From NCBI GenBank assembly GCA_004138175.2, contig RYFE02000005.1, positions 1-64,000 on the forward strand: 64,000 bases of DNA, in the 5' to 3' direction. Origin of the DNA: Chloroflexales bacterium ZM16-3. GTDB lineage: Bacteria; Chloroflexota; Chloroflexia; Chloroflexales; Chloroflexaceae. This document shows, one piece after another, positions 13,528-39,424 of this stretch. The translations under genes were made by a program, and so were the position numbers. Position 1 is the first letter of the stretch. Each line of letters opens with the position of its first letter. The notes below the pieces were generated by a model, which saw only the letters and a program-made list of their open reading frames with translations, did no database searches and had not been told where the DNA came from.

Positions 13528-13669
13528 CGCGCCCGCTCTATTAGGGCAGAGCTGTGGCGGGTATGTGCTCCAGGCTCCGGTGCCCGCGCTTGTCTGAGAT
13601 CGCTTCGCTATGGAAAATGCTCTACGTACCACAGCGATGTCGTCTGGGCTGAAGGGGACTTTTAAACGT

Positions 13670-19487: not shown

Positions 19488-20582
19488 TTACCGCCAGGAT
19501 GCCAGCATGATTGCGCTGCCCTTCGACGGGACGCCTCCCCCGCCAGGGACAACCTGACCATTAGGATAGCGGACAGAGACCGTCACCTCTTGCCCGTCAC
19601 CGATGCCACACGCCCGTGCGTTGCCGCCACCGTCGAAGTTCCCGCCTACGCGCAACCCATCGACCGTAAACGTCCAACCGCTGGTGCTGATCCCGGATAT
19701 TCTGATTGAGATGCAGCTCGGGGTGTCGTTGTAGTTCAGCACGCTAAAGCGTAATTTCTTCGCGGTTGCCGCCGTGGATGTGGTTATGGCATTGATTCGC
19801 GTGGTAATGCGCGAGACGCAGGCGGTGGCTGTGTCAGACTCCTCGATTTCTTTGGCCTGCTTGCAGTAGCCGAGCGCCTTCTCTAGCGGATCTTTGGCGT
19901 TCGCATCCTGCTTCTTCGTCGCCTCGTAGGCCGCCGCCGCCGTTAGCAGTGCATCCCTTTCGAGCGGATTCAGCCCAGGGAAGTCGGGCTGATCGTTACG
20001 AAATGCCGCAAGCTGCGTCACGAGTGTGTCCGCATTACTCTGGCGCGTGGCCAGGTCTCCGTCCGCTTCCGCCAGCTGCTTGAGCGCGGTTAGTTGATCA
20101 TATTGCGCGATGAATGTGGCCGCCGCCTGGCTCTGTGCCAGCGCTGCGGCGTAGGTTGGGACATCGGGACTCGTCAGCGCCAAGCCATTGTTGAGCCGGT
20201 CAATTGCCAGCGAGAACGACGCGGCGAGCTGATCTGAGGGGCCGGTTGCCGCAGTGATGCTCTGTTGCCCCCATGCGAGGTAGGCATCTGCAAGTAAGCT
20301 GCTGGCCTCTGGGTTGTCGAGATTGCCTGCGTAGACCTTGCTAAACAGCGTGATCGCGTACTCAAATCGACCCTCGCTCAGCGCCTGCTTGCCAAGCACA
20401 ACGTCGGGGTTCTCAGTGACGGGCACGCTTGTTGGTGCCGGGGTGCCAGTGGGGGCCGCAGTCGGGTTGATGGTTGGGATAACCAGCGGCGTCACTGTTT
20501 CTGTTGTCGCGGTTGATAGGCCACCACATGCGGTGAGCAGGCTTGTGAGCAGGGTGATTAGCAAGATGATTCGGTTGCGCAT
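19488..20582 (-). CDS. Lipoprotein, last gene of the type VII-like run
   Basis: A 364-residue predicted lipoprotein: MRNRIILLITLLTSLLTACGG gives a signal peptide with lipobox Cys near residue 19, followed by a Thr/Pro-rich linker. Residues about 60-250 are helical and Ala-rich, with TPR-like features (LGKQALSEGRFEYAITLFSKVY). The C-terminal 90 residues look beta-rich (SVLNYNDTPSCISIRISGIS). No known family was recognised. I prefer the ATG at 20582; an upstream ATG at 20597 would overlap the PP2C stop. Position suggests co-transcription with the phosphatase gene. Confidence 0.7.
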   Translation of the reverse strand: MRNRIILLITLLTSLLTACGGLSTATTETVTPLVIPTINPTAAPTGTPAPTSVPVTENPDVVLGKQALSEGRFEYAITLFSKVYAGNLDNPEASSLLADAYLAWGQQSITAATGPSDQLAASFSLAIDRLNNGLALTSPDVPTYAAALAQSQAAATFIAQYDQLTALKQLAEADGDLATRQSNADTLVTQLAAFRNDQPDFPGLNPLERDALLTAAAAYEATKKQDANAKDPLEKALGYCKQAKEIEESDTATACVSRITTRINAITTSTAATAKKLRFSVLNYNDTPSCISIRISGISTSGWTFTVDGLRVGGNFDGGGNARACGIGDGQEVTVSVRYPNGQVVPGGGGVPSKGSAIMLASWR

Positions 20583-20589
20583 CGTATCC

Positions 20590-21939
20590 TCAGTCATCTG
20601 GTTGTTTATGGAGTAGTGCCGGGATCGGTGGTGCCAGGATCGGTGGTGCCAGGATCGGTGGTGCCAGGATCAGTGGTGCCAGGATCGGGCCAGGATCGGT
20701 GATGCCAGGATCGGTGGTGCCAGGATCGGTGGTGCCAGGATCGGTGGTGCCAGGATCGGTGATGCCAGGATCGGTGATGCCAGGATCGGTGGTGCCAGGA
20801 TTTGGTGTAGAGCTTACCGTAGTCGTGGGTGTTGTATTGACAACCTCCCTAGTCTGGGTGCGAGTCGGGCGCTTGGGCGGCACTGGGGTTAGGGTTGAGG
20901 TTGCGGTTGGCGTGGATGTCGGTGTGGATGTCGGTGTGGGTGTTATCGAGGGCGCAATTGTGCTGGTCTGCTCAAGCAGCAGGGCAGGTGTACTGGTAGC
21001 TGGCAGGAGCGTTGAAGTCTTCGGCAGCGGTGTCACCGTCGCATCAAATGCTGGCACTACTTCTTGCGCTAAGGCTGCGCGATAGCGCGCATACACTGCG
21101 CCGCTGCCAATGGCGATGGCAAGGATCGCCAGTAGCGTGGCGATCAGCAATCCCGGTCGGCGGCCTTTTGGTGACGATACAGCATAGCCAATGATGGCCG
21201 CGCTCACATTGTCTTTAGAGCCGGCTGCTATCGCGGCCCGTGCGATGTCTTCGGTTGCCCGCGTTGGCTCCGCGCCACGGGCCAGCTGCGCAAGCTGATC
21301 ATCGCTCAGATGTTTGCAGACACCGTCGGTACAAAGGAGAAGCCGCTCGCCGGGCTGGAGCAGCACATCAATAAAGAGATCGGGGACACTCTCTAGCGCC
21401 AGAGCATCGCCCAGAGCGTAGGTGAGGCGCAGCGCCTGCTTATGCTGATATGCCTCAACTTCATTAGTTCCGCTGCTAATCAGCTGCTCGGCATAGGTGT
21501 GATCACGGGTAATCTGTCTTGCCGGACCTTCGGCTGGAATTCGATAAGCCCGGCTATCCCCGATGCTTGCAATCGTGCCCTCTGCGCGGCCATCGTGCAG
21601 GCGAAGCACCAGCGCCACCAGGGTTGTCCCGCTGACTTTGTAGTCGGGGTTGCCCTGGCGCAGGCTGTTGATCTCACGCGCTACCTGTGCTATCCCATGC
21701 TCAAGCGTGAGCGAATCGCGAGACGGTGCCTCGCTCAGGTACGTGTGCAGGATCGTAACAGCCTGCTCGCTGAAGAGCTTCCCATCGATCCCGCCGCCCA
21801 TCCCATCGGCAACGATCGCAAACAGCCCGTCGTTCGTAAACTCAAGGCCAATCGAGTCCTCATTTCTTTGGCGACCGCCTTGATCTGTGTAGGTGGCACC
21901 AATCAGCGTGCCGGTATCTCGGGAGGAAGTTGTCGTCAT
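20590..21939 (-). CDS. PP2C-family Ser/Thr phosphatase, membrane-anchored, with repetitive tail
   Basis: A 449-residue protein. Residues about 8-240 form a PP2C (PPM) domain with intact metal-binding motifs: QRNEDS, VADGMGGG, LLLCTDGVCKHLSD and GSKDNVSAAII. A membrane helix follows (about 260-280), then a Thr/Pro-rich stalk. The tail consists of seven T/I-TDPG units, then LAPPI units, because an 11-bp unit within a 15-bp tandem repeat changes the frame. The extracytoplasmic tail is therefore low-complexity. It should dephosphorylate targets of the neighbouring kinase; this follows from synteny and family. Its start lies 20 bp after the kinase stop. Confidence 0.92.
   Translation of the reverse strand: MTTTSSRDTGTLIGATYTDQGGRQRNEDSIGLEFTNDGLFAIVADGMGGGIDGKLFSEQAVTILHTYLSEAPSRDSLTLEHGIAQVAREINSLRQGNPDYKVSGTTLVALVLRLHDGRAEGTIASIGDSRAYRIPAEGPARQITRDHTYAEQLISSGTNEVEAYQHKQALRLTYALGDALALESVPDLFIDVLLQPGERLLLCTDGVCKHLSDDQLAQLARGAEPTRATEDIARAAIAAGSKDNVSAAIIGYAVSSPKGRRPGLLIATLLAILAIAIGSGAVYARYRAALAQEVVPAFDATVTPLPKTSTLLPATSTPALLLEQTSTIAPSITPTPTSTPTSTPTATSTLTPVPPKRPTRTQTREVVNTTPTTTVSSTPNPGTTDPGITDPGITDPGTTDPGTTDPGTTDPGITDPGPILAPLILAPPILAPPILAPPIPALLHKQPDD
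20617..20802. repeat. 15-bp minisatellite within the PP2C gene
   Basis: About thirteen units of ccaggatcggtggtg with minor substitutions (tgatg, cagtg). One unit near 20683-20693 is only 11 bp (ccaggatcggg), which switches the frame read in the PP2C gene. Confidence 0.92.
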
Positions 21940-21959
21940 TCAGAATCTCGTGTGGCAAA

Positions 21960-23225
21960 CTACGGTTTCGGCGCGGCCACGGCCGGCGTCGACGTAGGTG
22001 GCGATGTGGTCACAGCGGTTGGGGCCACCGTTAAGCTCGGGAGCGGAGTGACGGTGACACGCACGGGCGTAGGCGTGTTGGTGGGCTGCGGGGCGGGTGT
22101 CCCCCATCCAAACCCCATCGCTCCGACCAAGACGACACATAGCACCACCAAGGTTGCTGCCGCAGTCCCGATCTGACGCATAATGTTGGGCGGACGGGGG
22201 CCGCGCAGCTTGGCGGGCAGATTCCGCTCAGGTACCTCGTCGAGTCGCGCGATCACCTCGGCTGCTGTCGGACGATTCGCTGGGACGGGGTCAATCATCG
22301 CCATCACAAGCGCGCACAGTGGTTCAGATAGATGTGGGGCTTTCTCTTGAAGCTGGGATAGAGGAACAGAGCGCGTCCGATTGAACTCATCGGTGACACG
22401 CCCGGTCGGCACTGCGGCGCGTCCGGCCAGTAGCTCATAGAACATAACCCCCAGGCTGTAGATATCGGGTGGGGTGTCGATCCCTTTAGGGGTTGGGCCT
22501 CCGTGTCGCTCGGGGGGGCGATAGCGCGGCTGCCCCAGCTGCTCACGATTTCGCGTGTACCGAGTTGAGTCAGCAGCTGCGAAATCGACGACCACGCATT
22601 CGGGCATTGTCGGGATCGGCCAGCCCAGCGGTCGACGGAGCAGCACATTGGTTGGCGCAATATCGTGATGGACGATCTCCGCAACCGTATGGAGGTGATG
22701 GAGCGCTTCTGCCACCTGCCGCGCGATCAGCACAGCGACGCCGGTTGGGAGTGCCTCATCGCCATACCGCCGCATCAGATCGCGAACCGAGCCGCCTGCC
22801 TCATAGTTCAGAATGAGGCAGGGGTAATTCTCCTGTAGCCCGCCCTCATCGTCTTTAAATGTATCGAAGCACAGCCCCGGGCGGCGACCGCGCTGCGGTG
22901 ATATGTCGGGCGGGATCTTAAAGAGCTGAATGACTCGCGGGTGAAGAATACCTGGGTTGCTCAGGAAGGTGTGCTCATCACGCAGGTTGTCGATGCTCGC
23001 CGGGTGCGGGATTTTGATCACACACAGGTGATATGCGGCGACCCGCTCTGGAGTCAGGCGCTGCTTGAGCAGACGGGGCATCTGCTCGGCTGGAGGTTGC
23101 CCCTCGCGCCACAGGCGCCCAATATAGACACGGCCCTGACCACCCTCGAAGATCGGCATCAGGATCTCATACTCACGAATGCGGTGTCCCGGCGGCAGCT
23201 TTGGGATGAGGAGTGGTTTGCTCAT
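21960..23225 (-). CDS. Atypical Ser/Thr protein kinase, C-terminal membrane anchor
   Basis: A 421-residue kinase-fold protein: glycine loop FEGGQGRVYIGRL, CVIKIP lysine, catalytic loop VHHDIAPTNVL, metal site VVVDFAAAD, and RPPERHGG in the activation region. Compared with canonical kinases HRD is HHD, the catalytic-loop lysine is Ala (D-I-A-P-T-N), and DFG is DFA. The catalytic Asp and Asn remain, so activity is possible but not certain. A single helix at about residues 350-370 (TLVVLCVVLVGAMGFGWG) and a Thr/Pro-rich tail follow. The ATG overlaps the stop of the upstream VWA-FHA gene. Confidence 0.87.
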   Translation of the reverse strand: MSKPLLIPKLPPGHRIREYEILMPIFEGGQGRVYIGRLWREGQPPAEQMPRLLKQRLTPERVAAYHLCVIKIPHPASIDNLRDEHTFLSNPGILHPRVIQLFKIPPDISPQRGRRPGLCFDTFKDDEGGLQENYPCLILNYEAGGSVRDLMRRYGDEALPTGVAVLIARQVAEALHHLHTVAEIVHHDIAPTNVLLRRPLGWPIPTMPECVVVDFAAADSTRYTRNREQLGQPRYRPPERHGGPTPKGIDTPPDIYSLGVMFYELLAGRAAVPTGRVTDEFNRTRSVPLSQLQEKAPHLSEPLCALVMAMIDPVPANRPTAAEVIARLDEVPERNLPAKLRGPRPPNIMRQIGTAAATLVVLCVVLVGAMGFGWGTPAPQPTNTPTPVRVTVTPLPSLTVAPTAVTTSPPTSTPAVAAPKP

Positions 23226-25171
23226 GATGTGATCTCACAGAATACGCGCAGCTTAACCTCTGAGCTTAGCCAGAATACGTCACCCGACGCGAGCTGTTTG
23301 CGGTCGCCAGGGGCCATTGCCGCCTTCTCTGGGCCAAAAAAGGTGCCTTGGCTCGAATCACCTGCGATCAGGGTTGGCCCGCTGTTCAACAGTTCGATCC
23401 GTGCGTGATCGCGTGAGACTTGCTGATGTCGTAGTGGAATATCGGGCGTGCGCACGGTTGTCACGCGGCCAAGGTCGTAGTTGCGCTGGCTCTGCTTGAG
23501 CTCGATCCGCTGGGCCGTGTCGCCTGCCACCACCTCTACATACCAGCGCGTATGGCGCTCCAGAACTACGGTTCGCCGATCATGAGGGTCAAAGAGGGCT
23601 GTCCGTTCATCATCGGGTACCGCCAGGCGTCCGGTTACATCATCAGGGCTGTATGGTGCAGTTGCCTCATCGTCATTACTCGTGACGCGGGCCGTCATGT
23701 CATCATCGATCACAGGCGCAGGTGCCGCAGTCGGTCTTGGCTGCTGGCGGCGTCGCAACTGCCAGACGGCACCGGCTGCCCCGACCACAAGCACCACCCC
23801 TCCACCGATCATCAGCGGGAGAAACAGTCCGCTGAGACCCTGCGAGCTGGTTACGGCGGCAATCTCTATCTGCTGCGGCTGGCTACGGCTAACTTGATCC
23901 TGGGCATCCTTAACGGCGGCGATAAGCTCGTAGCTGCCCGATGGGAATCGCTGCTGAAATCCTGGGTCATTCGTGTCCAGCACATAGCGGAAGTCTGGCC
24001 CCTCGGTCACTGGGTCGGCGATGGGGAGCCCGTTGAGCAGATACTCGACCTGGGTGATCGGTGCCTGCTGGAAATCGACGCGGGTTGCCATCTGGACCGT
24101 GCCCTGGAACTCAGGGCTAGAGGTGATCAGGCTCACTACGGGCGGCAGCGCTGGGATATCGAGCGAGGCGGTCCCGTTGATAATTCCGACACTCACGGTG
24201 AGATTGGCTGGCCCCGACGCGATTCCCGTTGCGGAGAACCGCAGCGTTGTCATGTTGCTGCGGCGTAGCACGCTCGCGTACTGGTCGAATATCTGACGCT
24301 TGAGATCGGGGGAAGGCAGCTGTCCATCAACAACCACCGGTGTAACAGTGCCAACATCGGCCAGCGATTGAAGCCCCGTCAGCGCGGTCGGGTCACTCGC
24401 AAAGCCGTAGATCAGCAGATGGACGGGATGCCCTTTGGATTCTGCGGCGGCGAGCGCGTTGTGGATGGCGCTCGTATCGAACTCTTTATTGGGATCACCG
24501 GCGGCGAAGACAACAAGTGTGCGCGGCTGCTCCGGCGCAGCCTGATCCAGCCGCGACAGCGCCTGGATGATCGCTTCGTCAAGCGGGTATGGCCCAGCGC
24601 TGGATTCCTCAGTTGGCAACTGCGGATCAAACCGCACTTGAGGATTTGATCGGGTCAGCGTGTTCGCGATCGCTCCGAGGTCATTCGTCAACTCATGGGC
24701 GACCGTCACCGTCTCGGTGAGGATCATCAGCCCCGCGCGTTGATCAGCACTCTGGAGCTGACTCACAAGGTCGCTCACCATCGGCTGCATCAGCTGGAAA
24801 CGTGTTGCGTAGACGGCTCCGCGCTCGCCCATGCGGCTGCTCAGATCTGTCACCAGCATAACGGCACCAGGCACTTGGGTTTGCCGACGCTCAACACCGG
24901 GAACGGTCTTCCCCTCAAAGCTGACTACAAGGTCGGGCTGCGCCTGGGACGGAGACGGTGGAGCCTGTAGGGCGGCGAACTCAATGGTCGTCTCGATGGT
25001 GGGGAACTGTGAGAAATCAGTTCGTACAATGCGCAGTTGAGCGGTTCCCTGGGCCATGGCGCTAACCTGGGGAGATAGCAGTGTGCCGATGAGGATGGCA
25101 ACAAACAGCAGCAGCGCCCGATGGCTAGTGCGATGACGATGGACGTGTTTTGTTAGGGGAAGTTGTGACAT
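23222..25171 (-). CDS. VWA-TM-FHA protein (second copy)
   Basis: A 649-residue exported protein. An N-terminal hydrophobic segment (about 20-40) precedes a von Willebrand A-like domain with MLVTDLSSRMGERG where a MIDAS would be; the D-L-S-S-R variant keeps DxSxR-like oxygen ligands only partly. A membrane helix lies at about 445-468 (FLPLMIGGGVVLVVGAAGA), followed by an acidic, Thr-rich linker and a C-terminal FHA domain with VSRDHARIE and QGTFFG. The FHA part would be cytoplasmic and bind phosphothreonine. I start at ATG 25171, 8 bp after the previous stop with AGGA between; an upstream in-frame extension to 25309 overlaps that gene and looks non-coding. Confidence 0.85.
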   Translation of the reverse strand: MSQLPLTKHVHRHRTSHRALLLFVAILIGTLLSPQVSAMAQGTAQLRIVRTDFSQFPTIETTIEFAALQAPPSPSQAQPDLVVSFEGKTVPGVERRQTQVPGAVMLVTDLSSRMGERGAVYATRFQLMQPMVSDLVSQLQSADQRAGLMILTETVTVAHELTNDLGAIANTLTRSNPQVRFDPQLPTEESSAGPYPLDEAIIQALSRLDQAAPEQPRTLVVFAAGDPNKEFDTSAIHNALAAAESKGHPVHLLIYGFASDPTALTGLQSLADVGTVTPVVVDGQLPSPDLKRQIFDQYASVLRRSNMTTLRFSATGIASGPANLTVSVGIINGTASLDIPALPPVVSLITSSPEFQGTVQMATRVDFQQAPITQVEYLLNGLPIADPVTEGPDFRYVLDTNDPGFQQRFPSGSYELIAAVKDAQDQVSRSQPQQIEIAAVTSSQGLSGLFLPLMIGGGVVLVVGAAGAVWQLRRRQQPRPTAAPAPVIDDDMTARVTSNDDEATAPYSPDDVTGRLAVPDDERTALFDPHDRRTVVLERHTRWYVEVVAGDTAQRIELKQSQRNYDLGRVTTVRTPDIPLRHQQVSRDHARIELLNSGPTLIAGDSSQGTFFGPEKAAMAPGDRKQLASGDVFWLSSEVKLRVFCEITS

Positions 25172-25178
25172 TGGAGTC

Positions 25179-27428: not shown

Positions 27429-27526
27429 CCAGGATGTACGGTGAAAGTAGCGGGCAACTGAGATTGCTTGAACGTGCGGTTGATGTCAATCAGTCATTCC
27501 ATACGGCCACCGTGTACCTCCATCCC

Positions 27527-28156
27527 TCATCCGTTGCGCTGAAGCACATGGAGCTGTATCTGGCTAAACTCCAGCACAATCATATCATTTGGCTGAATCT
27601 GGTGGCGACGGTTGCCGGTCAGCGGGATCTCACCGCCTGCGGTTCGCAGCACAACCGGGTTGTCAGCCAGGCACTCGAATACATATTTCCCGCCCTGGTA
27701 CGTGATCCGGGCGTGTCGCCGCGACACACGCTCGCTGTGCGGTAGTCCATTTAGGTTCACGGCTAGCAGCGCCTCGTCGGGCAGGTTCGAGTCCGAGCGG
27801 CCGATCAGGGCGGGGGACCAGTGAAGGGGAAAGACCTTCCCGCTCTTCGGCTCGCGCAGGTACAGCGGCGCGGGAAGCGCGGTGGCCTGTGGCGGGATCT
27901 GCGGGATACGCTCGGCGAGCACAACCCGTGTCTCGCTCCCTAGCTGCGACCCAATAGGCGTATCGTCAATCAGCGGTGTGCCATTGCCGCGCAATAGATG
28001 GTAGCCGCTTGGGTTAAGGCTCAGGTAAGGCAGGTCATCGCCAAACTCGGCGAGGATGGCGGCGATCAGCTCAACTGGCTTGAGCTTCGGCTGCACTTCC
28101 GCCGCCTCATCACCCTTGTCGAAGATATTGATTGTGAGCCTCTGATAGGCGCTCAT
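27527..28156 (-). CDS. Ubiquitin-like (YukD/EsaB-like) plus FHA protein
   Basis: A 209-residue soluble protein. Residues about 1-85 (LTINIFDKGDEAAEVQPKLK onward to SETRVVLAER) look like a beta-grasp, ubiquitin-like domain of the YukD/EsaB kind: strand, strand, helix, L-x-L-N-P-S-G-Y, then a T-P-I-G-x-x-L turn. Residues about 95-209 are an FHA domain with LIGRSDSNLP, VSRRHARITYQ and a C-terminal L-E-F-S strand. The start overlaps the ATPase stop (ATGA). EsaB in Firmicutes T7SS is a small ubiquitin-like protein and EssC carries FHA domains; here both functions seem fused in one protein. The beta-grasp call is inference by pattern. Confidence 0.75.
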   Translation of the reverse strand: MSAYQRLTINIFDKGDEAAEVQPKLKPVELIAAILAEFGDDLPYLSLNPSGYHLLRGNGTPLIDDTPIGSQLGSETRVVLAERIPQIPPQATALPAPLYLREPKSGKVFPLHWSPALIGRSDSNLPDEALLAVNLNGLPHSERVSRRHARITYQGGKYVFECLADNPVVLRTAGGEIPLTGNRRHQIQPNDMIVLEFSQIQLHVLQRNG

Positions 28157-31100: not shown

Positions 31101-34100
31101 AGGCAATGCCGAGTGGCACGCTGAGCCATTCGGGGCTGTTCGCCTGCACCTGCCAACTCTGGATGACTGCAGTATGCAGCTGTCCGGCGAAGGTTGTTGT
31201 ATCGGGTGAGATGGCAAAGCGCGTGGCCAGCACCTCACGGTAGAACACCGCTTTGGGCAATGCGCTGAGCCGCATCGGCATGGTGAATCGGAGACCCTGT
31301 TCGCCAATCACCGTGCGCATTCGTGCGCCGATTATGTCGATCTTGGTCTTCTCATCCTGGTCAGATCCGGGTGCCGGGGGCAGTAGCGCCACCTGGAAGG
31401 CCAACGCCTGCCGATCAATCGCCGTCGTTCCACGTCCCGGCAGATCATCGATCAGCTCCACCCGGCTCCCAACGATAGCCGCATAGTCATCGGCGTCAGA
31501 TAGGCGAAGGGCCATGCGCTCGGAGAAGAGCCCATAGAGCTTGCTGGAGATCGTGTTCAGACGATTGGCGGTGATGACGATATGCAGGCCGTAGGTCTTG
31601 CCCTGACGCGCCAGCGTGATGAACTGGTTGAGCGGGTTATCTTCGTCGTCATTCCCTTGGCGCTGGCTGAAGGAGTCGATAAACTCGGCGAGCGTGTCCA
31701 CTACCAGCACAATGGCAGGCAGCGGCTCGTGCGGGAAGCGGGCGTTATACTCATTCAGGTTCTGCGCGCCGATACCGCCGAAGCGCATTTTCCGCTCGTT
31801 GAGCGTCGCCGTCAGCTCACGCCAGAGCAGCTGCACCTGCTCCTCGTAGCCGCCTTCGTCTGGCACAATCACGGTGCCCACATGCGGCAGTGCGGTCAGC
31901 ATCTGGAGGCTGCGCCCGCCAAGATCGAGCAGATGGATGTGCAGCGCCTCGGGCGGATGGGTGGCCGCGAGGCTGAGGACCAGCGTGCGAATGAAGCTCG
32001 TCTTGCCCGTGCCCGAGGCACCGAACAGCACGGCGTGGCCGCGATTCAGGTTTACGGTGAGCGGCAACTGCTGCGCGCCCTGTGGATTATCTACCAGGCC
32101 GACCACCGGCTGGAGCGTGTTGGCACCCCAGATGAGCGTATCCCAGCGCCCACCGTTATACATCCAGGTGGCCAATTCCGGCACCAACACCACCCCGTCA
32201 TCCTTCCGGCGGGCCAGCATCGTCTGCGCTGCGCTCGGCAGGTCGGTGGCGCTGAACGGGTCGAAGGTCAGCGTTGGCGGCAGCGCTGGCGGCCACGGCG
32301 CGGCGGGCCGCTCGGCACCGTTCGCCCGCAGGAGGTTCTCCGTGGTGCGCACCACCACCTCGAAGAAGCGTGGCGGCTCACCGCGCTCGGTCAGCGGCTG
32401 GTTTGGCACCTTCTCGCCGGTGTACGCCACCTGAATCAGCTCGATCTGCTCATTGCCCACCTGGAGGTAGCCGCGCCCAGGCATGCCGCTCGGCAGGAAG
32501 GCTGCGTCGGGGCGACGCAGCATCTCGCGGCTGGTGTCAACACCCTCCACCCGCAGACAGATCCGCAGCTTGATATTCGCGCGCATCTGGTCGGTCACGC
32601 CAACGGGGCGCTGGGCGGCGAGCAAGAGGTTGACACCTAGCGAGCGCCCGATCCGCGTGATCCGATCCAGCTCGTCGCGGAAGTCTGGGCTGTCGCTGAT
32701 CATCTCGGCGTACTCGTCGATAATGATAAACAGGTGCGGGATCGGCCCGCTGTTGGGGCCATTGTTCAGATGGAGCCCTTTGGTGCGGTACTCCACCACA
32801 TCCTTCACCTGATGAAACCCGAGCACCCTGGCGCGACGATCCATCTCTGCGCCGATGGCGGTGAACATGCGGCGCACGGCGGTCTTATTCAGGTTCGTGA
32901 CCAAATCGACCACGTGCGGCAACGTGTGGAATGGCTCAAAGGCACCGCCGCCCTTGTAGTCAACCAGCACAAAGTTGAGCACGGTGGGGTCATAGCGCAT
33001 CGCCAAGCTGACGATCAGCGACATCAGCAGCTCGGACTTCCCGGAGCCGGTGCCGCCCGCGATCATCCCGTGAACGCCGTCCTTCGCCGCCTCCAGGGCC
33101 AGCGTGCGAATCTTATTGCCGGAGGTCACGCCGATCGCTGCGCTGAGCCAATCGGCGCGCTCAGGCTTTATGCTCGCCTCCCAGCCGTCGATGATCAGCC
33201 GGGCCAGCTTACTGCGGATCTCCGCATCGTCGCGTTCGTTCGTGCGGGCGAGGAGCGTGCGCAGGAGCATTGTCTTCGGCAGTGCCTCAATCTCGATCGG
33301 CAGCTGCGCTTTGCGTGTGGCGGGCCATGCCTGCACGGCGGCACGCAGCCGTGAGGTGAACAGCTCGATCACGGCGGCATCGGTGGTAGCAACCTGGATG
33401 CTCAGCGGGATCTGGTCGATCAGGCTATAGCCGCGACCGGGCAGATCGGCCACTTCGGCAACGTGTGAACCGAGCACATCGCGATAGTGGGAGGAGTCTG
33501 TTAAACGCAGGGCAAAGCGCTCGGTGAGGAATCCCGCAAGCTGGTTCGGAACCTGCATCGGTTGGCCGGCGGTGATCACCAGATGGACGCCGTACGGTCG
33601 GCACTGGCGAGCCAACGCAATCAGTCGATCAAGCCCACTCTCGGCGTTCTCTACCTGCCCGCCGAACGTCTCGACAAACTCAGTCAGGTTATCCAGCGCC
33701 AGCACAATTGCTGGCAGCGCCTTATCCGCATACCTGGCATTGTAGGAAAGCAGCGTATCTTCACGGGCATCGCCAAGCACTACCTTGCGCTGCTCGACGA
33801 TATCGCTAATCTCGCGGAGCAGCTGCTCGACGCGCTCACGATAACTGGCCTCAGCCTCATTTGGCGTAATGACGGCACCAACATGGGGGAGCTGGGACAA
33901 GGGCATCAGCGAGCGACCTCCGAGGTCGAGCACATACATGTGTAGCTGATCCGGCGGGTGCGAGGCGGCCAGGCTCGTCACAAGCGTGCGGATAAAGGTC
34001 GTCTTCCCCGAGCCTGGTGCCCCGTAGATCACGGTGTGTCCACGAGCAAGATCGACGGACAAGGGGTACTGACGCGCCGCAGCAGGCGCATCCACGAGAC

Positions 34101-36768
34101 CGACAACAGGCCGAAGCGCATAGTCCTCCCAAAGCAACGGCTGATCCCACCCGCTACCATCGGTCAGCCAGTGTACCATCGGCGGGCTGAGGCTGAGGGA
34201 GGCATCAGGCGCATGCCCGAGGGTGAGCAGCTCTTGGCGGTCGAGGTAGATCGCGGAGGTGATAGGGGCAATGCCTGGCCCACGAGACTCCGTCAGCGGG
34301 TCGGTGAGCGCCAGCTTTGTCGGCAGCGGGCCGGGCCAGGGGGCGCGCTGCGGAACGACGCCGCGCGAATCGGCCAGAGCGCGCAGCGCCTCGATCACCT
34401 CAAGAAACACCGGGCGGGAGGGCAGTTCGGCGGGGGCAATGTTAGACGTAGCATGGCGTCCCCACAGCACCGGCGGCAGGTTCCGCTGACCAGCTGGCAC
34501 ATACAGCTCGCCGGCGTAGGCCACCTGAATCAGCTCGATCTCCTCATTGCCCACCTGAAGGTAGCCGCGCCCTGGGATATTGTTCGGCAGGTACGCGGCC
34601 TCGGTGCGGCGGAGCATCTCGCGGCTCTCACCCTGGCTCTCGACTCGCAGACAGATGCGGTATTTGATATTTGAGCGCATCTGGTCAGTCACACCGCTCG
34701 GGCGCTGGGCGGCCAGCAAGAGATGGACGCCGAGGGAGCGTCCGATCCGGGTAATCTGCTCAAGCTGGCTCTTCGCATCCGCCCGGTCGGCGATCATCTC
34801 GGCAAACTCATCAATGACAATGAAGAGGAACGGGTATGGTATCTGGGTGATGTGGAGGTTGCGTTTACGATACTCGACGATCGTATTCACTTTGGCGCTG
34901 GCATTGAGGCGCTGGCGGCGGTCAAGTTCGGCGCGGATGGAGGTAAACATCCGCGTGACCGCATCGCCGTTCAGGTTGGTCACAATATCGACGCAGTGCG
35001 GCAGGTTGCGAAACGACTCGAAAGCACCACCGCCCTTAAAGTCCACCAGCACAAAATTCAGCGCGGTTGGGCTGTAGCTGGCGGCCATTCCGGCGATCAG
35101 TGCGATCAGCAGCTCGGATTTACCCGAGCCGGTGCTACCGGCAACCAGCCCATGGACACCGTCGCGGTTTGCCGAGAAGTTCAGGGCACGATCTTTATTC
35201 CCAGCCATCCGCCCGATCTTCGCCCGCAGCCATGAGGCGTTGCCCGCCTGCTCGCTCTTACTCCAAGCAGCTTGCGCATCTTTGACAAAGCCCTCGATTG
35301 TCGCATCGCTGCTAGATGTACCGTCATTGCTCCGCATCAGCTCCAGAAACGAGACGCTCTTCGCCAGGCCACTGCCCTCGGTCTGCTGGAGCTTGAGTCC
35401 CGCCATAGCTGTGGCCAACTCGGTCATCTGATTCCCATCGCGGATCGTGTCGGCGTTTCCGAGCAGACGCAGCGAATTTAGCCCAACCTCGGCATAGCGA
35501 AGGACTGTCTGGTCACCAGCCCGCTCAACCTCAATAAGCGCAGTACAGCCGCCGGGTGCCTTGCTTCGCCGAGGGACAAGGAACAGAACCGCTGCGCCAA
35601 GGATCGCCCCCTCCGCAATCAGAATCCCCAGACCGGCATCAGTCAGCGCGATGCTATGGAGTGGGTGTTTCGGATCGTTAGCGGCGGCAAGCAGATCGAT
35701 CACAACCAGCAGTTGTGGCAGAGTCGGGTTCTCACCTGCCTGCTGCTCTGGGTCCTGAAGCCGAATCTTCCGCTGGGCCAGCACTCGTCGTAGACCTTCC
35801 GACCAGCGATCTAACGCGGTCCCTTGCTCCGGGTCAGACGACAGCTCATCTTTCGGATCATCAAGGAATACGATAGCGGTACTATCCTCGCCATTGCTCG
35901 CATGGGGAAGTTGTCGAACCCATGCCCAGTCTGCACGGTGGTCTGCCACGAGGAGGATTCGCATGTCAGAGGGCGCATGGAAGGCGGCGACGTGAGCGAT
36001 CATCGCGCGGGCCAGATCAGTAGCGGGGCCGGGATCTCCCGCAATTGCGAGCGCATGAGAAAAATGAGGTGGGGGCGGGCCCTTCACCTCTTCATCGTCC
36101 TCGGGCTTCGGCGGCGCGGGGCGGAGCATCACCGTCACCGGCATCGCGCTGACAAATTGCGAGTCTGCCGCAAGCTTAAGTGCATCACGTCGCAGCTGGC
36201 TGTTGCCATCAGATTCGGTAAGCGTGTAGACAACGGTTGATGGTAGCGTCGCAACCCCAAGGCGCACCATGCCAAAGTCGGGGTCGCCGACCCGCCGCTC
36301 CCAGAGGCGCACCACATCTGCTGCGGTGCCTGACGGCTTGCGCGCCACGGCCTGTGCGTGCCGCACCAGCGCAGCGGTGCCATCAGGGTCAGGGTAGTTG
36401 TACTGGGCAAAGCGGCGCTGAGCTTCCTGGGCCGCGCGCATATCGCGGTAGAGATCGAGCAGCTGACTGGCGTAGGCATCCCGCTCAGCAGCACGCTCAA
36501 CCTCTTCGCCACGGTAGGTGTAGATCGCAAATGCCGTTGACGCGATCACCGAGAGCGCCATTGGGATGAGCAATAAGGGGCTACGCCCGCTGCCACCAAG
36601 CGACGAGACCAGGATATACCCGATGATCGTCGTCAGCGGGAGCGCCACCTGCACCAGTCGACTCGTTGTGACCGCACGCTGATCTGGTGGCTTGGGGATC
36701 TCAATGCTACCGAACGGGAGGTCGGGCTGTATGCGTGGCGGGCGATCAGAGGCTATCTGGTTACTCAT
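28153..36768 (-). CDS. Giant FtsK/SpoIIIE-type ATPase, EssC/EccC-like, seven P-loop domains
   Basis: A 2,871-residue motor protein, about twice the usual EssC/EccC length. Two membrane helices lie at about 40-58 and 64-84. Walker A motifs are near residues 543 (GSTGSGKSE), 914 (GAPGSGKTT), 1236 (GGTGSGKSE), 1581 (GASGTGKTS), 1909 (GGTGSGKSE), 2252 (GDGGSGKTN) and 2547 (GPPLSGKTT). Domains 1, 3 and 5 are full FtsK-like copies with VDFKGGGAFE or VDYKGGGAF, a VIDEFAEM/IIDEYAEM Walker B, and AAQRP or ASQRP. Domains 2, 4, 6 and 7 lack the catalytic Glu (ALDNLTEF, VVDTLAEF, MIDNIASL, LIDNFDEF). Thus three active/degenerate pairs plus one terminal degenerate domain. It should drive export of the WXG100 proteins upstream. 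The start overlaps the pseudokinase stop (ATGA). Confidence 0.93.
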   Translation of the reverse strand: MSNQIASDRPPRIQPDLPFGSIEIPKPPDQRAVTTSRLVQVALPLTTIIGYILVSSLGGSGRSPLLLIPMALSVIASTAFAIYTYRGEEVERAAERDAYASQLLDLYRDMRAAQEAQRRFAQYNYPDPDGTAALVRHAQAVARKPSGTAADVVRLWERRVGDPDFGMVRLGVATLPSTVVYTLTESDGNSQLRRDALKLAADSQFVSAMPVTVMLRPAPPKPEDDEEVKGPPPPHFSHALAIAGDPGPATDLARAMIAHVAAFHAPSDMRILLVADHRADWAWVRQLPHASNGEDSTAIVFLDDPKDELSSDPEQGTALDRWSEGLRRVLAQRKIRLQDPEQQAGENPTLPQLLVVIDLLAAANDPKHPLHSIALTDAGLGILIAEGAILGAAVLFLVPRRSKAPGGCTALIEVERAGDQTVLRYAEVGLNSLRLLGNADTIRDGNQMTELATAMAGLKLQQTEGSGLAKSVSFLELMRSNDGTSSSDATIEGFVKDAQAAWSKSEQAGNASWLRAKIGRMAGNKDRALNFSANRDGVHGLVAGSTGSGKSELLIALIAGMAASYSPTALNFVLVDFKGGGAFESFRNLPHCVDIVTNLNGDAVTRMFTSIRAELDRRQRLNASAKVNTIVEYRKRNLHITQIPYPFLFIVIDEFAEMIADRADAKSQLEQITRIGRSLGVHLLLAAQRPSGVTDQMRSNIKYRICLRVESQGESREMLRRTEAAYLPNNIPGRGYLQVGNEEIELIQVAYAGELYVPAGQRNLPPVLWGRHATSNIAPAELPSRPVFLEVIEALRALADSRGVVPQRAPWPGPLPTKLALTDPLTESRGPGIAPITSAIYLDRQELLTLGHAPDASLSLSPPMVHWLTDGSGWDQPLLWEDYALRPVVGLVDAPAAARQYPLSVDLARGHTVIYGAPGSGKTTFIRTLVTSLAASHPPDQLHMYVLDLGGRSLMPLSQLPHVGAVITPNEAEASYRERVEQLLREISDIVEQRKVVLGDAREDTLLSYNARYADKALPAIVLALDNLTEFVETFGGQVENAESGLDRLIALARQCRPYGVHLVITAGQPMQVPNQLAGFLTERFALRLTDSSHYRDVLGSHVAEVADLPGRGYSLIDQIPLSIQVATTDAAVIELFTSRLRAAVQAWPATRKAQLPIEIEALPKTMLLRTLLARTNERDDAEIRSKLARLIIDGWEASIKPERADWLSAAIGVTSGNKIRTLALEAAKDGVHGMIAGGTGSGKSELLMSLIVSLAMRYDPTVLNFVLVDYKGGGAFEPFHTLPHVVDLVTNLNKTAVRRMFTAIGAEMDRRARVLGFHQVKDVVEYRTKGLHLNNGPNSGPIPHLFIIIDEYAEMISDSPDFRDELDRITRIGRSLGVNLLLAAQRPVGVTDQMRANIKLRICLRVEGVDTSREMLRRPDAAFLPSGMPGRGYLQVGNEQIELIQVAYTGEKVPNQPLTERGEPPRFFEVVVRTTENLLRANGAERPAAPWPPALPPTLTFDPFSATDLPSAAQTMLARRKDDGVVLVPELATWMYNGGRWDTLIWGANTLQPVVGLVDNPQGAQQLPLTVNLNRGHAVLFGASGTGKTSFIRTLVLSLAATHPPEALHIHLLDLGGRSLQMLTALPHVGTVIVPDEGGYEEQVQLLWRELTATLNERKMRFGGIGAQNLNEYNARFPHEPLPAIVLVVDTLAEFIDSFSQRQGNDDEDNPLNQFITLARQGKTYGLHIVITANRLNTISSKLYGLFSERMALRLSDADDYAAIVGSRVELIDDLPGRGTTAIDRQALAFQVALLPPAPGSDQDEKTKIDIIGARMRTVIGEQGLRFTMPMRLSALPKAVFYREVLATRFAISPDTTTFAGQLHTAVIQSWQVQANSPEWLSVPLGIASGNLPRELTLEAQKDGVHGMVAGGTGSGKSELLMTFIIGLALVYPPTILNFVLVDYKGGGAFKPFETLPHCVEIVTNLNTSAVHRMFSAISAEIRRRQQLNADTGTKDIVDYRKRGFHHAQPYPHLVIIIDEYAEMIDSNPDYRLQLESITRVGRAQGVHLLLASQRPKGVSDQMRANIKLRLCLRVEDADTSRELLRRPDAARLPSGLPGRGFLQGSGERIELVQVAYCGDRVPLPDNVAVRWPGRAQQVAEPEAPKLFSYAVDVAMSVNGDTPVRRPWPSMLPTVFSLETMLPDWDKQEVRGTRTLRPELSAWLTGATADLWPGVDWHDTALRATVGLIDDPENARQDPLVLDLGRSHMAIFGDGGSGKTNLLRTIIAGLTATHRPDELHLFVIDMSGHSFRSVEEFPHVGAVLSSDEELFDERLRRLIDYLSREADARQQQISKADAASFMEYNQREPQPLPAIIVMIDNIASLQESYESLIEISLIPLTRRALGVGISLIVTGNTPGSMMSRLYGLFAERITFRQTNAERYMDIVGRGAVELDDTPGRGYIRVAGRPLLLQAAQPIGIYTPDGRQIRPEPAELRVIGDRMAAVFADLPDAGTRAHPIETLEREIALATLAAPDAADPAVIALGIGGDLLPAKINLRRSGPHFTIIGPPLSGKTTTLRSWALNLADHYTPDAISMVLIDLQSRFFDYGGALSMRKLPHIVQSISEPDEFAALIDWLDAECPNLATSTHQIFILIDNFDEFSEELETNSQRAKRLARLARRYGRDGLHIVIAASAESSVSDLRRRIQSSGYGLGLRTAAALGPLKVMRIPAGLEGRELPLGRGYIVKSGQTNLVQVATPYLIDPLADEDQQIADTMDTWVAQIAGRHPPREVKLPSTSPDPKVIQIQEVLRAAQAKLHQSGVTTNVVLAEQIGSVDEAEWNSRVALIALIPNILRQLNPSLPESVIASFHEEDLLRTLNDCVRETDGSTL

Positions 36769-37901
36769 ACGAAGATTTCACGAACTGACAAGAGTAAGGC
36801 TATCAGGAAGGCAACGAGCAGTACAATTGCCGCAATGCGAAAGATTCGTGCTGGTGGGGGCCAACGGCTCGGGCGGACGACCGGGGTCATGCCAATCTCA
36901 GTTCCCTTGATCTCATCGACGATAGCCCGTGCGTCGATCGGGCGAGCCGACGGGTTGCGGGCGAGCATCTGGAGCGCGAGATTGGCAATCGGCTGGACAT
37001 CCGCGCGCATGAGCGGAGTGACCTGGCCAGCGATGATTCGCTGATAGATCGGCTCTGCGGAGATCTGGTTGCGGGAAAAGGGGGGCGTGCTAGCCAACAG
37101 CTCGTACAACACGAGGCCAAGTCCGTAGACATCCGTCTGTGTACCCGCGCCGACCCCGCCACCTACACGCGTGGGGCTTGCGAGTTCCGGCGCAGTACCA
37201 CCTGGGCGAACCGCGTCCCGGTACCAGTGTTCAACATAGGTGCGGTTATCGGTTGTTTGGCGCAAGGTCGTCGCCAACCCGAGATCCACCAGCGTCACGC
37301 GGGGAACACCCTGATCACCCGCAAAGTGGACAAGCACACTCTCTGGCCCAAGAGCGAGGTGAAGATGCTGTGCGCCATGCACAAGCGCAATCGCAGAAGC
37401 CAGCTCAATAGTGATCCAGCCGATGTGATCGATCCATAGCTGCGGGTGCTTCTTCAGCACATCCTGGAGCGGCTCGCCTGGGATATGAGCAAAGAGGGTA
37501 TAGGTCACGAGCTGGTCGCTAAGCATTGCCCGACCTACAAGGCGCGCCTGTGCATTGGCTCGTGTGTAGGGCGATACGAGCGTGGGGAGGACAGGGCGTT
37601 GGTTTGCGGTGGACTGAAGCTTCTGGAGCAACTCAGCCTCACGAATCAGCCGATGCTCGTTATCTTGGCCGGGGTGGGCCACTTTAAGAAACACCCGCTG
37701 CTGAAGGTGAATGGCCTCATAGATCACGGCGGAGCGCAGCACCACGAGCGGGCGAACGACCTCAACATCGCCGAGGCGGTCTCCATATGCGAGCACCATC
37801 GGTGCACGTTCAGCCTGACAGAACGGCTCCTGACAGAAGAGTGCACAGGATGGAGCAGTGCGATCACAGAGCAAACAGACCCGATCCACAAGATTCTCCA
37901 T
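36765..37901 (-). CDS. Membrane-anchored pseudokinase, EssB/YukC-like in plan
   Basis: A 378-residue kinase-fold protein. The N-terminus has a cysteine cluster (Cys 9, 12, 19, 23, 28) that may bind zinc. The kinase fold keeps the VFLKVAHP lysine and LVDLGLAT (DFG as DLG), but the catalytic loop is HLHLALGPESVL: the HRD aspartate and the following lysine are gone, so phosphotransfer is unlikely. A C-terminal helix at about 352-370 (IFRIAAIVLLVAFLIALLL) anchors it with almost nothing outside. Firmicute EssB/YukC is also a pseudokinase with one membrane helix, and sits beside EssC; position and plan agree here, though sequence homology to EssB cannot be shown by eye. Overlaps the ATPase start. 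Confidence 0.85.
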   Translation of the reverse strand: MENLVDRVCLLCDRTAPSCALFCQEPFCQAERAPMVLAYGDRLGDVEVVRPLVVLRSAVIYEAIHLQQRVFLKVAHPGQDNEHRLIREAELLQKLQSTANQRPVLPTLVSPYTRANAQARLVGRAMLSDQLVTYTLFAHIPGEPLQDVLKKHPQLWIDHIGWITIELASAIALVHGAQHLHLALGPESVLVHFAGDQGVPRVTLVDLGLATTLRQTTDNRTYVEHWYRDAVRPGGTAPELASPTRVGGGVGAGTQTDVYGLGLVLYELLASTPPFSRNQISAEPIYQRIIAGQVTPLMRADVQPIANLALQMLARNPSARPIDARAIVDEIKGTEIGMTPVVRPSRWPPPARIFRIAAIVLLVAFLIALLLSVREIFV

Positions 37902-37958
37902 CTCGCTGCGGAACCAGCTGCGTGGTTTTGTACGCCCGATGCAGAAAGACTCAATCTA

Positions 37959-38018
37959 CACCCACCATATGTTTCGGTTACGGCCGCACGCGCGTTAGCC
38001 TTAAACATATGGTGGGTG
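37959..38018 (-). promoter_or_regulatory. Long stem-loop between WXG100 genes and the pseudokinase gene
   Basis: Perfect 16-bp arms (cacccaccatatgttt at 37959-37974 and its complement at 38003-38018) enclose a 28-nt loop, in the 148-bp gap of an otherwise tightly packed run. There is no T-tract on the minus strand. It may act as an attenuator or stabilise the WXG100 mRNA 3' end. Confidence 0.65.
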
Positions 38019-38049
38019 AAGACAATTCTAGGAAGTACGCAGCAACCGT

Positions 38050-38349
38050 TTAATGAAAACGCGCCGCACCGAGCTCATCGCCGCGCTCAAACGCATCGAC
38101 TGAAGCGGTGAGATCCTGGCTGATCTCGCCACACTTCTCTGCCACATTCTCGATATATGGCTTGACCGTATCGATGAAGTAGGCCACGGCGGCCCCACCG
38201 ACTGCACCAATGAATGCCGTTGCCTTGAGCACGTTGCTCAGCGCAGTGAGCACTTTGACGACCTGCGTCAAGGTCTCACTGATCTGAGAGAACTTTTTTG
38301 AGAAATCCCTGACCACAGGGACATCCATGTAGACGCCATCCACAGCCAT
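38050..38349 (-). CDS. WXG100-size protein with central hydrophobic helix
   Basis: A 99-residue helical protein in the WXG100 array: MAVDGVYMDVPVVRDFSKKF, heptad-like helix SQISETLTQVVKVLTALSNV, then FIGAVGGAAVAYFIDTVKPY, and a charged C-terminal helix. The W-x-G turn is absent; a hydrophobic IGAVGGAAVAYF segment sits where the turn would be. It is therefore a divergent Esx-like protein or a membrane-active relative. GAGGAG precedes the ATG. The last gene of the array before the stem-loop. Confidence 0.65.
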   Translation of the reverse strand: MAVDGVYMDVPVVRDFSKKFSQISETLTQVVKVLTALSNVLKATAFIGAVGGAAVAYFIDTVKPYIENVAEKCGEISQDLTASVDAFERGDELGAARFH

Positions 38350-38409
38350 AAACGCTCCTCTCTTCGATTGACGATACTGGGTAAGATCCGGTGCGTTGGT
38401 GGACTATGC

Positions 38410-38748
38410 CTAGTAGAAGCTAAAGGCGTCGAACAGCCGGGACTTCACCAAGCGCTCAACTTCTTCATCGGCTCGCTCAATCACGTCGCGGGCATACTCT
38501 AGGTTCGTGCAGGTCGTAGAGATATGATTCTGGATGGTGGTGACATTCGGAATCAAAAGGGAAGAGACTTCCTCGACAAACGCGTCAGCGCCTTTGCCTT
38601 GCCAAGCCCCGCCGACAACCTGCTGAATCATCGCCTTCAGCGGGTTCATGGCTGCCTGCTCAACCGTATTCAGCTGATCCGTCAGGCCTTTTAGCACGCT
38701 ATCCAACACTGCCCGCGCCAAGCGGAGCAGAATTTCCGTTACGGACAT
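38410..38748 (-). CDS. WXG100 (ESAT-6-like) protein
   Basis: A 112-residue helical hairpin protein with the hallmark turn GGAWQGKGADAFVEEV (W-Q-G) at about residues 47-62. WXG100 proteins are exported as dimers by type VII systems and serve as substrates and co-export partners. A C-terminal region with DVIERADEEVERLVKSRLF carries a possible YxxxD/E-like export signal variant only loosely. AGAGGAG lies before the ATG. Flanked by two further family-size genes on the same strand. Confidence 0.85.
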   Translation of the reverse strand: MSVTEILLRLARAVLDSVLKGLTDQLNTVEQAAMNPLKAMIQQVVGGAWQGKGADAFVEEVSSLLIPNVTTIQNHISTTCTNLEYARDVIERADEEVERLVKSRLFDAFSFY

Positions 38749-38779
38749 AGTGGCACTCCTCTGCTACTACGCATACCTG

Positions 38780-39082
38780 CTAACTGCCGAACTGGCTACG
38801 AGAGGTGTCATCGGCCTCACGCATGTACTCCACCGCAGCCTTGACATCCTCTTCCAGCTCCTGAAACTTCTCGATCAGCTTGCTCAGCGACGGAGTAAGC
38901 TTGCTGCGGATTGCATCCACAAAAGCAGTGCCACCGCGTCCGAGCAGCGCACCCTCTTCCATCATATTAGCGATGCTCTGCATCTCCTGCACCACATCCT
39001 GTAGATCCTCGCCGCCCTGATGGAATGTCCTGGACATCTGCTCGGCCAGGCCATAGTCTAGTTTGATCTCGTCATGTGCCAT
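38780..39082 (-). CDS. WXG100-like protein, LxG variant
   Basis: A 100-residue protein with WXG100 layout: two amphipathic helices around EGALLGRGGTAFVDAI, where the Trp of WxG is Leu (L-L-G). The C-terminal YMREADDTSRSQFGS resembles the Y-x-x-x-D type VII export signal (Y86-M-R-E-A-D). GGAG precedes the ATG. By size, sequence plan and position it belongs with the proteins encoded on either side. Confidence 0.8.
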   Translation of the reverse strand: MAHDEIKLDYGLAEQMSRTFHQGGEDLQDVVQEMQSIANMMEEGALLGRGGTAFVDAIRSKLTPSLSKLIEKFQELEEDVKAAVEYMREADDTSRSQFGS

Positions 39083-39124
39083 CGTTATCGCTCCAGGTAG
39101 CCCCGGCGAGCGCCGGAATGCAGC

Positions 39125-39424
39125 TTAATTGCGGAACCGAGAGCTCGCCTCTTCTTCGGCGTGCTTCATCTTCTGTACGATCTCGCGCACCGTTCGGCTC
39201 GCCTCTTCGAGTACCTCGTGCAGCCGATGGGCGGCCGGGAGCACTTCACTATTCATCTCTGCGAAGAAGCTATCGGCACCACGACCGAGCCACCCGCCAT
39301 CTTCGAGTGGGCCCATACTGCGCTGAACCTGCTGGAGTGTGTGTCTGGCAGCATGCGATTGATTGGCGAACCGGCTTGCAATTTGCTCGAGCTGATCATA
39401 ATCAGCCCGAATTTCTTCAGCCAC
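39125..39424 (-). CDS. WXG100 (ESAT-6-like) protein, first gene of the run
   Basis: A 99-residue protein with the canonical turn GGWLGRGADSFFAEM (W-L-G) at about residues 43-57 between two helices, and a charged C-terminus HAEEEASSRFRN. The start is a GTG at 39424 with AGGAGG at 39435-39430, 5 nt upstream; an ATG 2 bp upstream is out of frame. It is closest to its neighbour at 38780 in the C-terminal region (E-E-A/DD-T-S-S/R-R-F). The likely first gene of the 20-kb run. Confidence 0.85.
   Translation of the reverse strand: MAEEIRADYDQLEQIASRFANQSHAARHTLQQVQRSMGPLEDGGWLGRGADSFFAEMNSEVLPAAHRLHEVLEEASRTVREIVQKMKHAEEEASSRFRN

Follow-up and report, generated by a model that had tools for sequence, protein, structure and literature searches.

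A run of twelve genes in Chloroflexales bacterium ZM16-3 (assembly GCA_004138175.2, contig RYFE02000005.1, positions 1 to 64,000, hereafter the window) raises the question of whether it encodes a type VII secretion system (T7SS) and, if so, of which type and under what control. The 12 open reading frames (ORFs) of this Chloroflexota genome of the Oscillochloris type all lie on the minus strand and follow one another from 39424 to 19488 as one closely packed run. The Pfam/NCBIfam scan of the window proteins gave matches to WXG100 (four), EssC, FHA (three), VWA (two), Pkinase (two) and PP2C, and we regard it as almost certain that the run is a T7SS locus. Its best reading, at a probability of about 0.75, is a Chloroflexota T7SS regulated by protein phosphorylation and exporting antagonistic effectors.

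Gene content and conservation of the locus

The genes are listed below from 39424 downwards (aa, amino acids; TM, transmembrane segment, assigned by a simple hydropathy scan; Ubl, ubiquitin-like; values after family names are E-values unless given in bits).

39125..39424, minus strand: W1, WXG100/Esx protein, 99 aa; GTG start after AGGAGG; PF06013 4e-13, TIGR03930 above cut-off
38780..39082, minus strand: W2, Esx protein, 100 aa; PF06013 4e-9, no W in the turn
38410..38748, minus strand: W3, Esx protein, 112 aa; PF06013 5.5e-5, below cut-off
38050..38349, minus strand: W4, Esx protein, 99 aa; PF06013 4.7e-6, at cut-off; C-terminal signal FERGD (F/YxxxD type)
36765..37901, minus strand: psK, zinc-ribbon pseudokinase with one C-terminal TM, 378 aa; Pkinase 4e-14
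28153..36768, minus strand: EssC/EccC-type ATPase, 2871 aa; TIGR03928 1430 bits, EccC (4nh0) 4e-79
27527..28156, minus strand: Ubl-FHA, 209 aa; YukD/ubiquitin fold at residues 1-85 and FHA at about 93-209
25179..27428, minus strand: VWA1, signal peptide-VWA-TM-FHA, 749 aa; PF00092 5e-8, PF00498 1e-12; metal ion-dependent adhesion site (MIDAS) intact
23222..25171, minus strand: VWA2, signal peptide-VWA-TM-FHA, 649 aa; PF00498 2e-6, PF13519 1e-5 (just below cut-off)
21960..23225, minus strand: STK, Ser/Thr kinase with C-terminal TM, 421 aa; Pkinase 9e-23; K71, D188, N193, D214
20590..21939, minus strand: PP2C/PPM phosphatase with TM, 449 aa; PP2C_2 1.5e-12
19488..20597, minus strand: lipoprotein, 369 aa; LTAC lipobox; TPR_19 0.001, below cut-off

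Neighbouring ORFs overlap by 4 nt (ATGA) at the psK/EssC, EssC/Ubl-FHA and VWA2/STK junctions and by 8 nt at the PP2C/lipoprotein junction, and the remaining gaps do not exceed 98 nt, with the exception of the 148 nt between W4 and psK. The minus-strand run with several ATGA overlaps that the first-pass annotation had proposed was thus borne out for all 12 ORFs. The domain searches also agree with its FtsK/EssC-type ATPase, Ubl/FHA protein, two VWA-TM-FHA proteins and PP2C, and three FHA readers are indeed accompanied by a kinase, a pseudokinase and a phosphatase. Its four WXG100-size proteins all match PF06013, two over the cut-off and two at or just under it. Other descriptions required correction. 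The ATPase is giant as stated, but the term is incomplete, since in this protein D1-D2 occurs three times in tandem, followed by D3; the Ser/Thr kinase called atypical keeps its catalytic residues, in the motif variants HHD and DFA; and the name "reduced" is wrong for a system with a threefold motor and a fourfold expanded Esx set.

For every Esx protein of the window, the profile built for its position gave the best match (E-values of 1.5e-41 for W1, 4.9e-44 for W2, 5.9e-44 for W3 and 2e-42 for W4), far ahead of the profiles of the other positions (1e-19 or weaker), so four orthologous Esx slots have been kept. The W-x-G motif is present in W1 and W3 and absent from W2 and W4. The YxxxD/E signal was found in 27 of 38 W4 orthologues, or in 35 if F is allowed at the first position. 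All four window proteins carry the pattern HxxxD/ExxhxxxH, a C-terminal export pattern of WXG100 proteins (PMC3935865), which occurs in 36, 35, 27 and 36 of the 38 orthologues of W1 to W4, respectively, compared with 6-10 after shuffling.

The gene order, on whose conservation in relatives the first-pass annotation had made its proposal depend, was retrieved as W-W-W-W-psK-EssC-Ubl-FHA from dozens of Chloroflexota loci, and is therefore not a matter of chance. The relatives contain three to four Esx genes followed by psK, EssC, Ubl-FHA, two VWA-FHA genes, kinase, PP2C and lipoprotein, with some inversions; lipoprotein homologues adjoin the kinase/PP2C genes in a few of them. The giant EssC is present in 9 of the 41 genomes of the family (fragmented in one), and ordinary-length EssC in many others. 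When the profile of the giant EssC was run against 84,980 species genomes, 66 loci were kept, whose titles are Chloroflexota except for one "bacterium" and one "Melainabacteria" contig of a metagenome-assembled genome (MAG). Among 26 distinct full giant loci, four Esx genes were found in 22, psK in 23, Ubl-FHA in 25, VWA-FHA in 19, EspG-fold genes in 15, WXG100-headed long genes in 20, and kinase and PP2C in 9 each, these counts covering the captured flanks only, which contig ends cut short. The core order also surrounds single-motor EssCs of about 1500 aa (Anaerolineae and others). Within the data examined, the system was found in Chloroflexota only. A distinct and widespread T7SS lineage is thereby placed in this phylum (Oscillochloris, Viridilinea, Herpetosiphon, Anaerolineae and others), extending the picture given by the main survey of these subtypes in the literature, which covered Bacillota and Actinomycetota (PMC11217815). 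As for the "Melainabacteria" contig (L049, JAFKGK010000011.1), binned as Candidatus Melainabacteria, its gene content and sizes are as in Chloroflexi 54-19 (L042), and it is probably misbinned.

The EssC motor, Ubl-FHA and the phosphorylation genes

Domain profiles give EssC the architecture TM-(D1-D2)x3-D3, and TIGR03928 independently shows the same alternation. This architecture was found in all 27 distinct full-length giant EssCs, including that of the complete Herpetosiphon aurantiacus genome (CP000875). Walker A is intact in every D1 of these proteins, and the Walker B "DE" is kept in D1a in 27/27, in D1b in 23/27 and in D1c in 24/27, with "DN" at this site in most D2 and D3 domains. The D1 domains are 64-70% identical between slots and 74-78% inside one slot, so the triplication is older than the spread of the giants; identity of D2 between slots is 42-50%. 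The first D1/D2 phylogeny, which included the divergent sequences of genome G034, locus L065 and contig C55 of the present genome, was poorly resolved. After their removal D1a (0.985), D2b (0.98) and D2c (1.0) formed clades, and D1b and D1c were intermixed. In the D1 tree the giant EssC lineage stands apart both from the references for T7SSa and T7SSb and from the EssC on C55. No FHA match was obtained for EssC residues 1-520, and the matches listed in a plasmid search held only ordinary EccC/EssC and no giant one. Draft MAGs can misassemble long near-repeat ORFs, and the giant EssC could on that account be taken for an artefact of assembly or gene prediction; the identical seven-domain order in separate genomes, one of them complete, the divergence of the slots and the clades formed by some of them refute this for practical purposes.

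On a tentative model, which we consider somewhat less probable than its opposite, EssC would be a stacked translocase with three catalytically competent D1 rings per hexamer working one after another, and Ubl-FHA would assemble it as an adaptor reading phospho-Thr. If true, this would be a multi-stage, phospho-gated T7SS motor unlike any characterised one. With D1-D2 tripled, it becomes testable what the multiple ATPase domains of EssC/EccC contribute and whether transport is driven by D1 alone.

The AF2 (AlphaFold2) model of Ubl-FHA has a pLDDT of 96.6. Its Ubl half matches bacterial Ubl and the ISG15 C-terminal domain in fold (TMt 0.77-0.78), and its FHA half gave a fold match with Z of 13-14. 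The YukD family PF08817 is matched by 16 of 35 homologues, though not by the window protein itself, and the homologue on C55 has a Pfam YukD match of 7.5e-8; the EsaB-like component claimed at first pass was thus confirmed by both fold and homologues. Residues G119, R120, S145, R146 and N166 of the FHA domain are invariant or nearly so, and the domain looks phospho-competent by these residues. Ubl-FHA homologues occur in 9 of the 41 family genomes, eight of them with a giant EssC and one with a weak FHA-only match (2.4e-5), and high-scoring matches in the family are confined to giant-EssC genomes. The ninth giant-EssC genome, G034, has a divergent copy that was found by profile. Across the phylum, 11 of 400 genomes gave a near full-length match to the Ubl-FHA profile, compared with 226 of 400 for generic FHA matches.

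The catalytic Asp of psK is kept in none of 48 position-defined members, being replaced by Gly, Cys, Ala or Asn, while the VAIK Lys and the DFG Asp are present in 48/48 and the DFG Gly is invariant too. The four Cys of the N-terminal CxxC...CxxxxC ribbon are likewise found in 48/48, the ribbon itself having been a selection criterion. Few residues follow the C-terminal TM, leaving no extracytoplasmic domain, and no PF10140 YukC/EssB match was obtained in the whole genome, psK included (the Bacillus subtilis control was positive), so the designation of this protein as EssB-like could not be upheld. psK ORFs lying on the opposite strand between the Esx genes and EssC, considered as possible antisense artefacts, proved real (22 of 47 loci). 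The operon kinase keeps the Lys, the HRD Asp, the Asn and the DFG Asp by its motif columns; the labelling rule had a part in selecting the HRD columns but none in those of Lys and DFG Asp. The metal-binding Asp residues of PP2C are conserved. The FHA phospho-Thr residues are mostly conserved in VWA1, and VWA2, which most likely starts at ATG 25171 and not at TTG 25309, has a degenerate MIDAS by motif columns.

The PP2C tail contains a 15-bp tandem repeat of 12.7 copies (20616-20801), in which a short unit shifts the frame, so that TDPG repeats give way to LAPP repeats immediately ahead of the stretch shared with the lipoprotein gene; the repeat could vary by slipped-strand replication.

Relation to described type VII systems

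With T7SSb the locus shares EssC, a YukD-type Ubl, a membrane-anchored pseudokinase, WXG100 proteins and, in one relative, a nuclease toxin with YezG-type immunity. T7SSb has EsaA, EssA and EssB/YukC, whereas this genome is without all three; EsaA and EssA, which the first-pass annotation had likewise reported as absent, were without a match in the entire genome (Bacillus subtilis controls positive). The FHA of T7SSb sits on EssC, and that of YukB/EssC binds the pseudokinase YukC independently of phosphorylation and is devoid of the phospho-Thr residues (PMC9600267); in the present system the FHA domains sit on the Ubl and VWA proteins and keep these residues. T7SSb is therefore ruled out by the absence of EsaA, EssA and EssB and by an EssC without FHA. 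Ubl-FHA together with a catalytically dead psK that retains its nucleotide site offers a test of whether kinase-FHA contacts in T7SSs need phosphorylation.

T7SSa/ESX systems have in common with the locus an EccC-type ATPase, Ubl, EspG-fold chaperones and the YxxxD/E-type signal on one Esx paralogue, and differ from it in that the Chloroflexota locus has a kinase, a PPM phosphatase, FHA-VWA proteins and a tripled motor. EccD gave no match in the genome (actinobacterial plasmid control positive), and its absence rules out T7SSa. No match was obtained in the genome for EccB, for which no control genome gave one either; the absence of all actinobacterial membrane parts claimed at first pass accordingly holds for EccD, and for EccB is a negative with a silent control.

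The system is therefore of a type outside both T7SSa and T7SSb, as had been suggested, but kinase-, PPM- and FHA-equipped systems were already described in 2024 as T7SSc-j, in which kinase, PPM phosphatase, vWA, FHA and EspG parts accompany EssC and WXG100 and which are reported from Bacillota and Actinomycetota only (PMC11217815). The phosphorylation link is known in outline from these systems; Chloroflexota and the present architecture are not among them. The T7SSh protein TshM, compared here by its description, resembles psK in being kinase-like, in having a single C-terminal TM and in lacking an extracytoplasmic domain (PMC11217815); the zinc ribbon and the invariant VAIK Lys and DFG Asp are features of psK. 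No literature report of a comparable Chloroflexota or Herpetosiphon T7SS was found, most subscription papers and preprints lying outside the search, and, as features of a Chloroflexota system, the threefold motor, the four Esx slots, the fusion of Ubl with FHA and the pairing of cargo with EspG appear to be unreported.

It could be held that the locus is simply T7SSc, with its seven parts TscA-G, in another phylum and with lineage-specific elaborations, which we consider rather unlikely. T7SSc (Garrett, Higginson and Palmer 2024, PMC11217815) shares WXG100, Ubl, an FHA-less EssC (TscC), a TM Ser/Thr kinase, vWA, PPM and EspG; all seven functional categories occur in this genome, and FHA-less EssC, TM kinase and PPM phosphatase are encoded together in the window operon, as in T7SSc. 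However, TscA is a single WXG100 protein and the locus has four Esx genes; TscE is a cytoplasmic vWA protein, unlike VWA1 and VWA2 with their signal, TM and C-terminal FHA; and TscG, an EspG, is encoded in the cluster, whereas the Chloroflexota EspG genes travel with cargo genes and are not core. The Chloroflexota locus adds the Ubl-FHA fusion, the (D1-D2)x3-D3 motor and, as a core gene, the zinc-ribbon psK. Its EssC forms a clade of its own apart from the T7SSa/T7SSb references in a tree built without T7SSc EssC. As parts are shared, Esx number and vWA topology differ and EssC is unplaced, T7SSc is nearest in plan and not a proven family.

Cargo and proposed mechanism

Directly 3' of Ubl-FHA, the relatives encode proteins whose WXG100 head resembles W1 and whose tails vary. 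In one relative the tail is an endonuclease (PF13930 8e-26) and the next gene encodes a YezG-like immunity protein (1.8e-12); other tails are hydrolase-like or glycine-zipper, and several carry no assignment. The WXG100-headed genes are adjoined by genes for proteins of about 230-290 aa with an EspG fold (AF2 pLDDT 93.1), the match being mycobacterial EspG3 4w4i (E 2.5e-11, Z 19.5 over 251 residues) and the next fold reaching Z 3.8. Their identity came from the fold search, as Pfam gave no informative match and the PDB sequence search none. This genome has three EspG-fold genes, on contigs C83, C86 and C55 and none in the window operon. On C83 the gene is paired with a WXG100 protein with a lipase-like tail, and on C86 with a WXG100 glycine-zipper protein preceded by an FHA ORF resembling P0006. 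C55 (5844-16529) holds a second, divergent T7SS with a 1349-aa EssC, a YukD protein, VWA-FHA, a kinase, an EspG-fold gene and a 570-aa lipase-like candidate substrate. The system is also present with EspG-paired cargo in Herpetosiphon, which is culturable and makes secretome experiments feasible.

Regarding secretion, phospho-switching, partner contacts and effector role or toxin action, we infer the following. EssC would capture the four Esx proteins and the WXG100-headed effectors, paired with EspG-fold chaperones, and its three serial D1-D2 modules ahead of the substrate-binding D3 would push the cargo across the cytoplasmic membrane. The Ubl domain may dock on EssC in analogy to the EccD Ubl on EccC, and the fused FHA, standing in for the FHA domains of T7SSb EssC, may dock on psK or on phospho-Thr made by the operon kinase. 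For the exported VWA domains of VWA1 and VWA2 the probable role is to sense the envelope or a neighbouring cell or surface, and the kinase and PP2C would turn assembly on and off. The cargo is most likely antagonistic or digestive. Of these elements, effector export is likely, while the phospho-switch is only slightly favoured, and for antagonism as the main role the balance is tipped to a similar degree.

Several observations weigh against the phosphorylation-regulated effector exporter. The slot behind Ubl-FHA (27429-27526) is empty in the window; the cargo candidates on C83 and C86 may instead be those of the C55 system; and the pore seems unexplained by the encoded proteins, as no EsaA-, EccD- or EccB-like channel protein is visible (the EccB control being silent). 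As far as the captured flanks extend, the kinase gene is seen in only 9 of 26 giant loci, and the PP2C gene likewise in 9, so the switch may not be universal. The same counts, with the inverted or rearranged position of the kinase, phosphatase and VWA-FHA genes in several relatives or their placement outside the captured flank, would suit a separate envelope-signalling module that merely adjoins the T7SS core. We judge this improbable, because 19 of 26 giant loci have VWA-FHA close to EssC, a count limited by contig ends, VWA-FHA and kinase genes also neighbour the EssC gene of the divergent C55 system, and the core Ubl protein itself bears a seemingly phospho-Thr-competent FHA. A DNA translocase or anti-phage defence of the HerA/SspH/MADS kind, to which the PADLOC matches of FtsK/HerA-type and kinase models (SspH, mad8, mad6, PD-T4-6) would point, was rejected as very improbable: these matches reflect generic FtsK-ATPase and kinase similarity, EssC/EccC models score far higher, and the WXG100, YukD and EspG-fold partners are T7SS-specific.

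Further observations concern the cargo slots and the surroundings of the operon. A WXG100-headed glycine-rich protein whose C-terminal end is a conserved hydrophobic ASPFLALLGKAIK-type tail recurs, paired with an EspG-fold gene (L041:19488-20651, L053:19709-20923, L067:20001-21239 and others), and looks structural rather than toxin-like. The cargo slot of a Viridilinea MAG (L063; G039:C902:21848-29888) contains three large genes, candidates for a CHAT-like protein, a MoxR-like AAA protein and a 1506-aa kinase-FHA protein, which possibly resemble signalling or conflict modules, their domains being putative. Two related glycosidase-like proteins with weak GH116 similarity, one of them kinase-fused, adjoin the operon in the window (13610-16372 and 17766-19484), and a kinase-fused glycosidase-like homologue flanks the giant-EssC locus of a relative (L045:2785-5778). 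The window also carries a multihaem cytochrome gene of the cytochrome c3/c7 type at 9229-10464.

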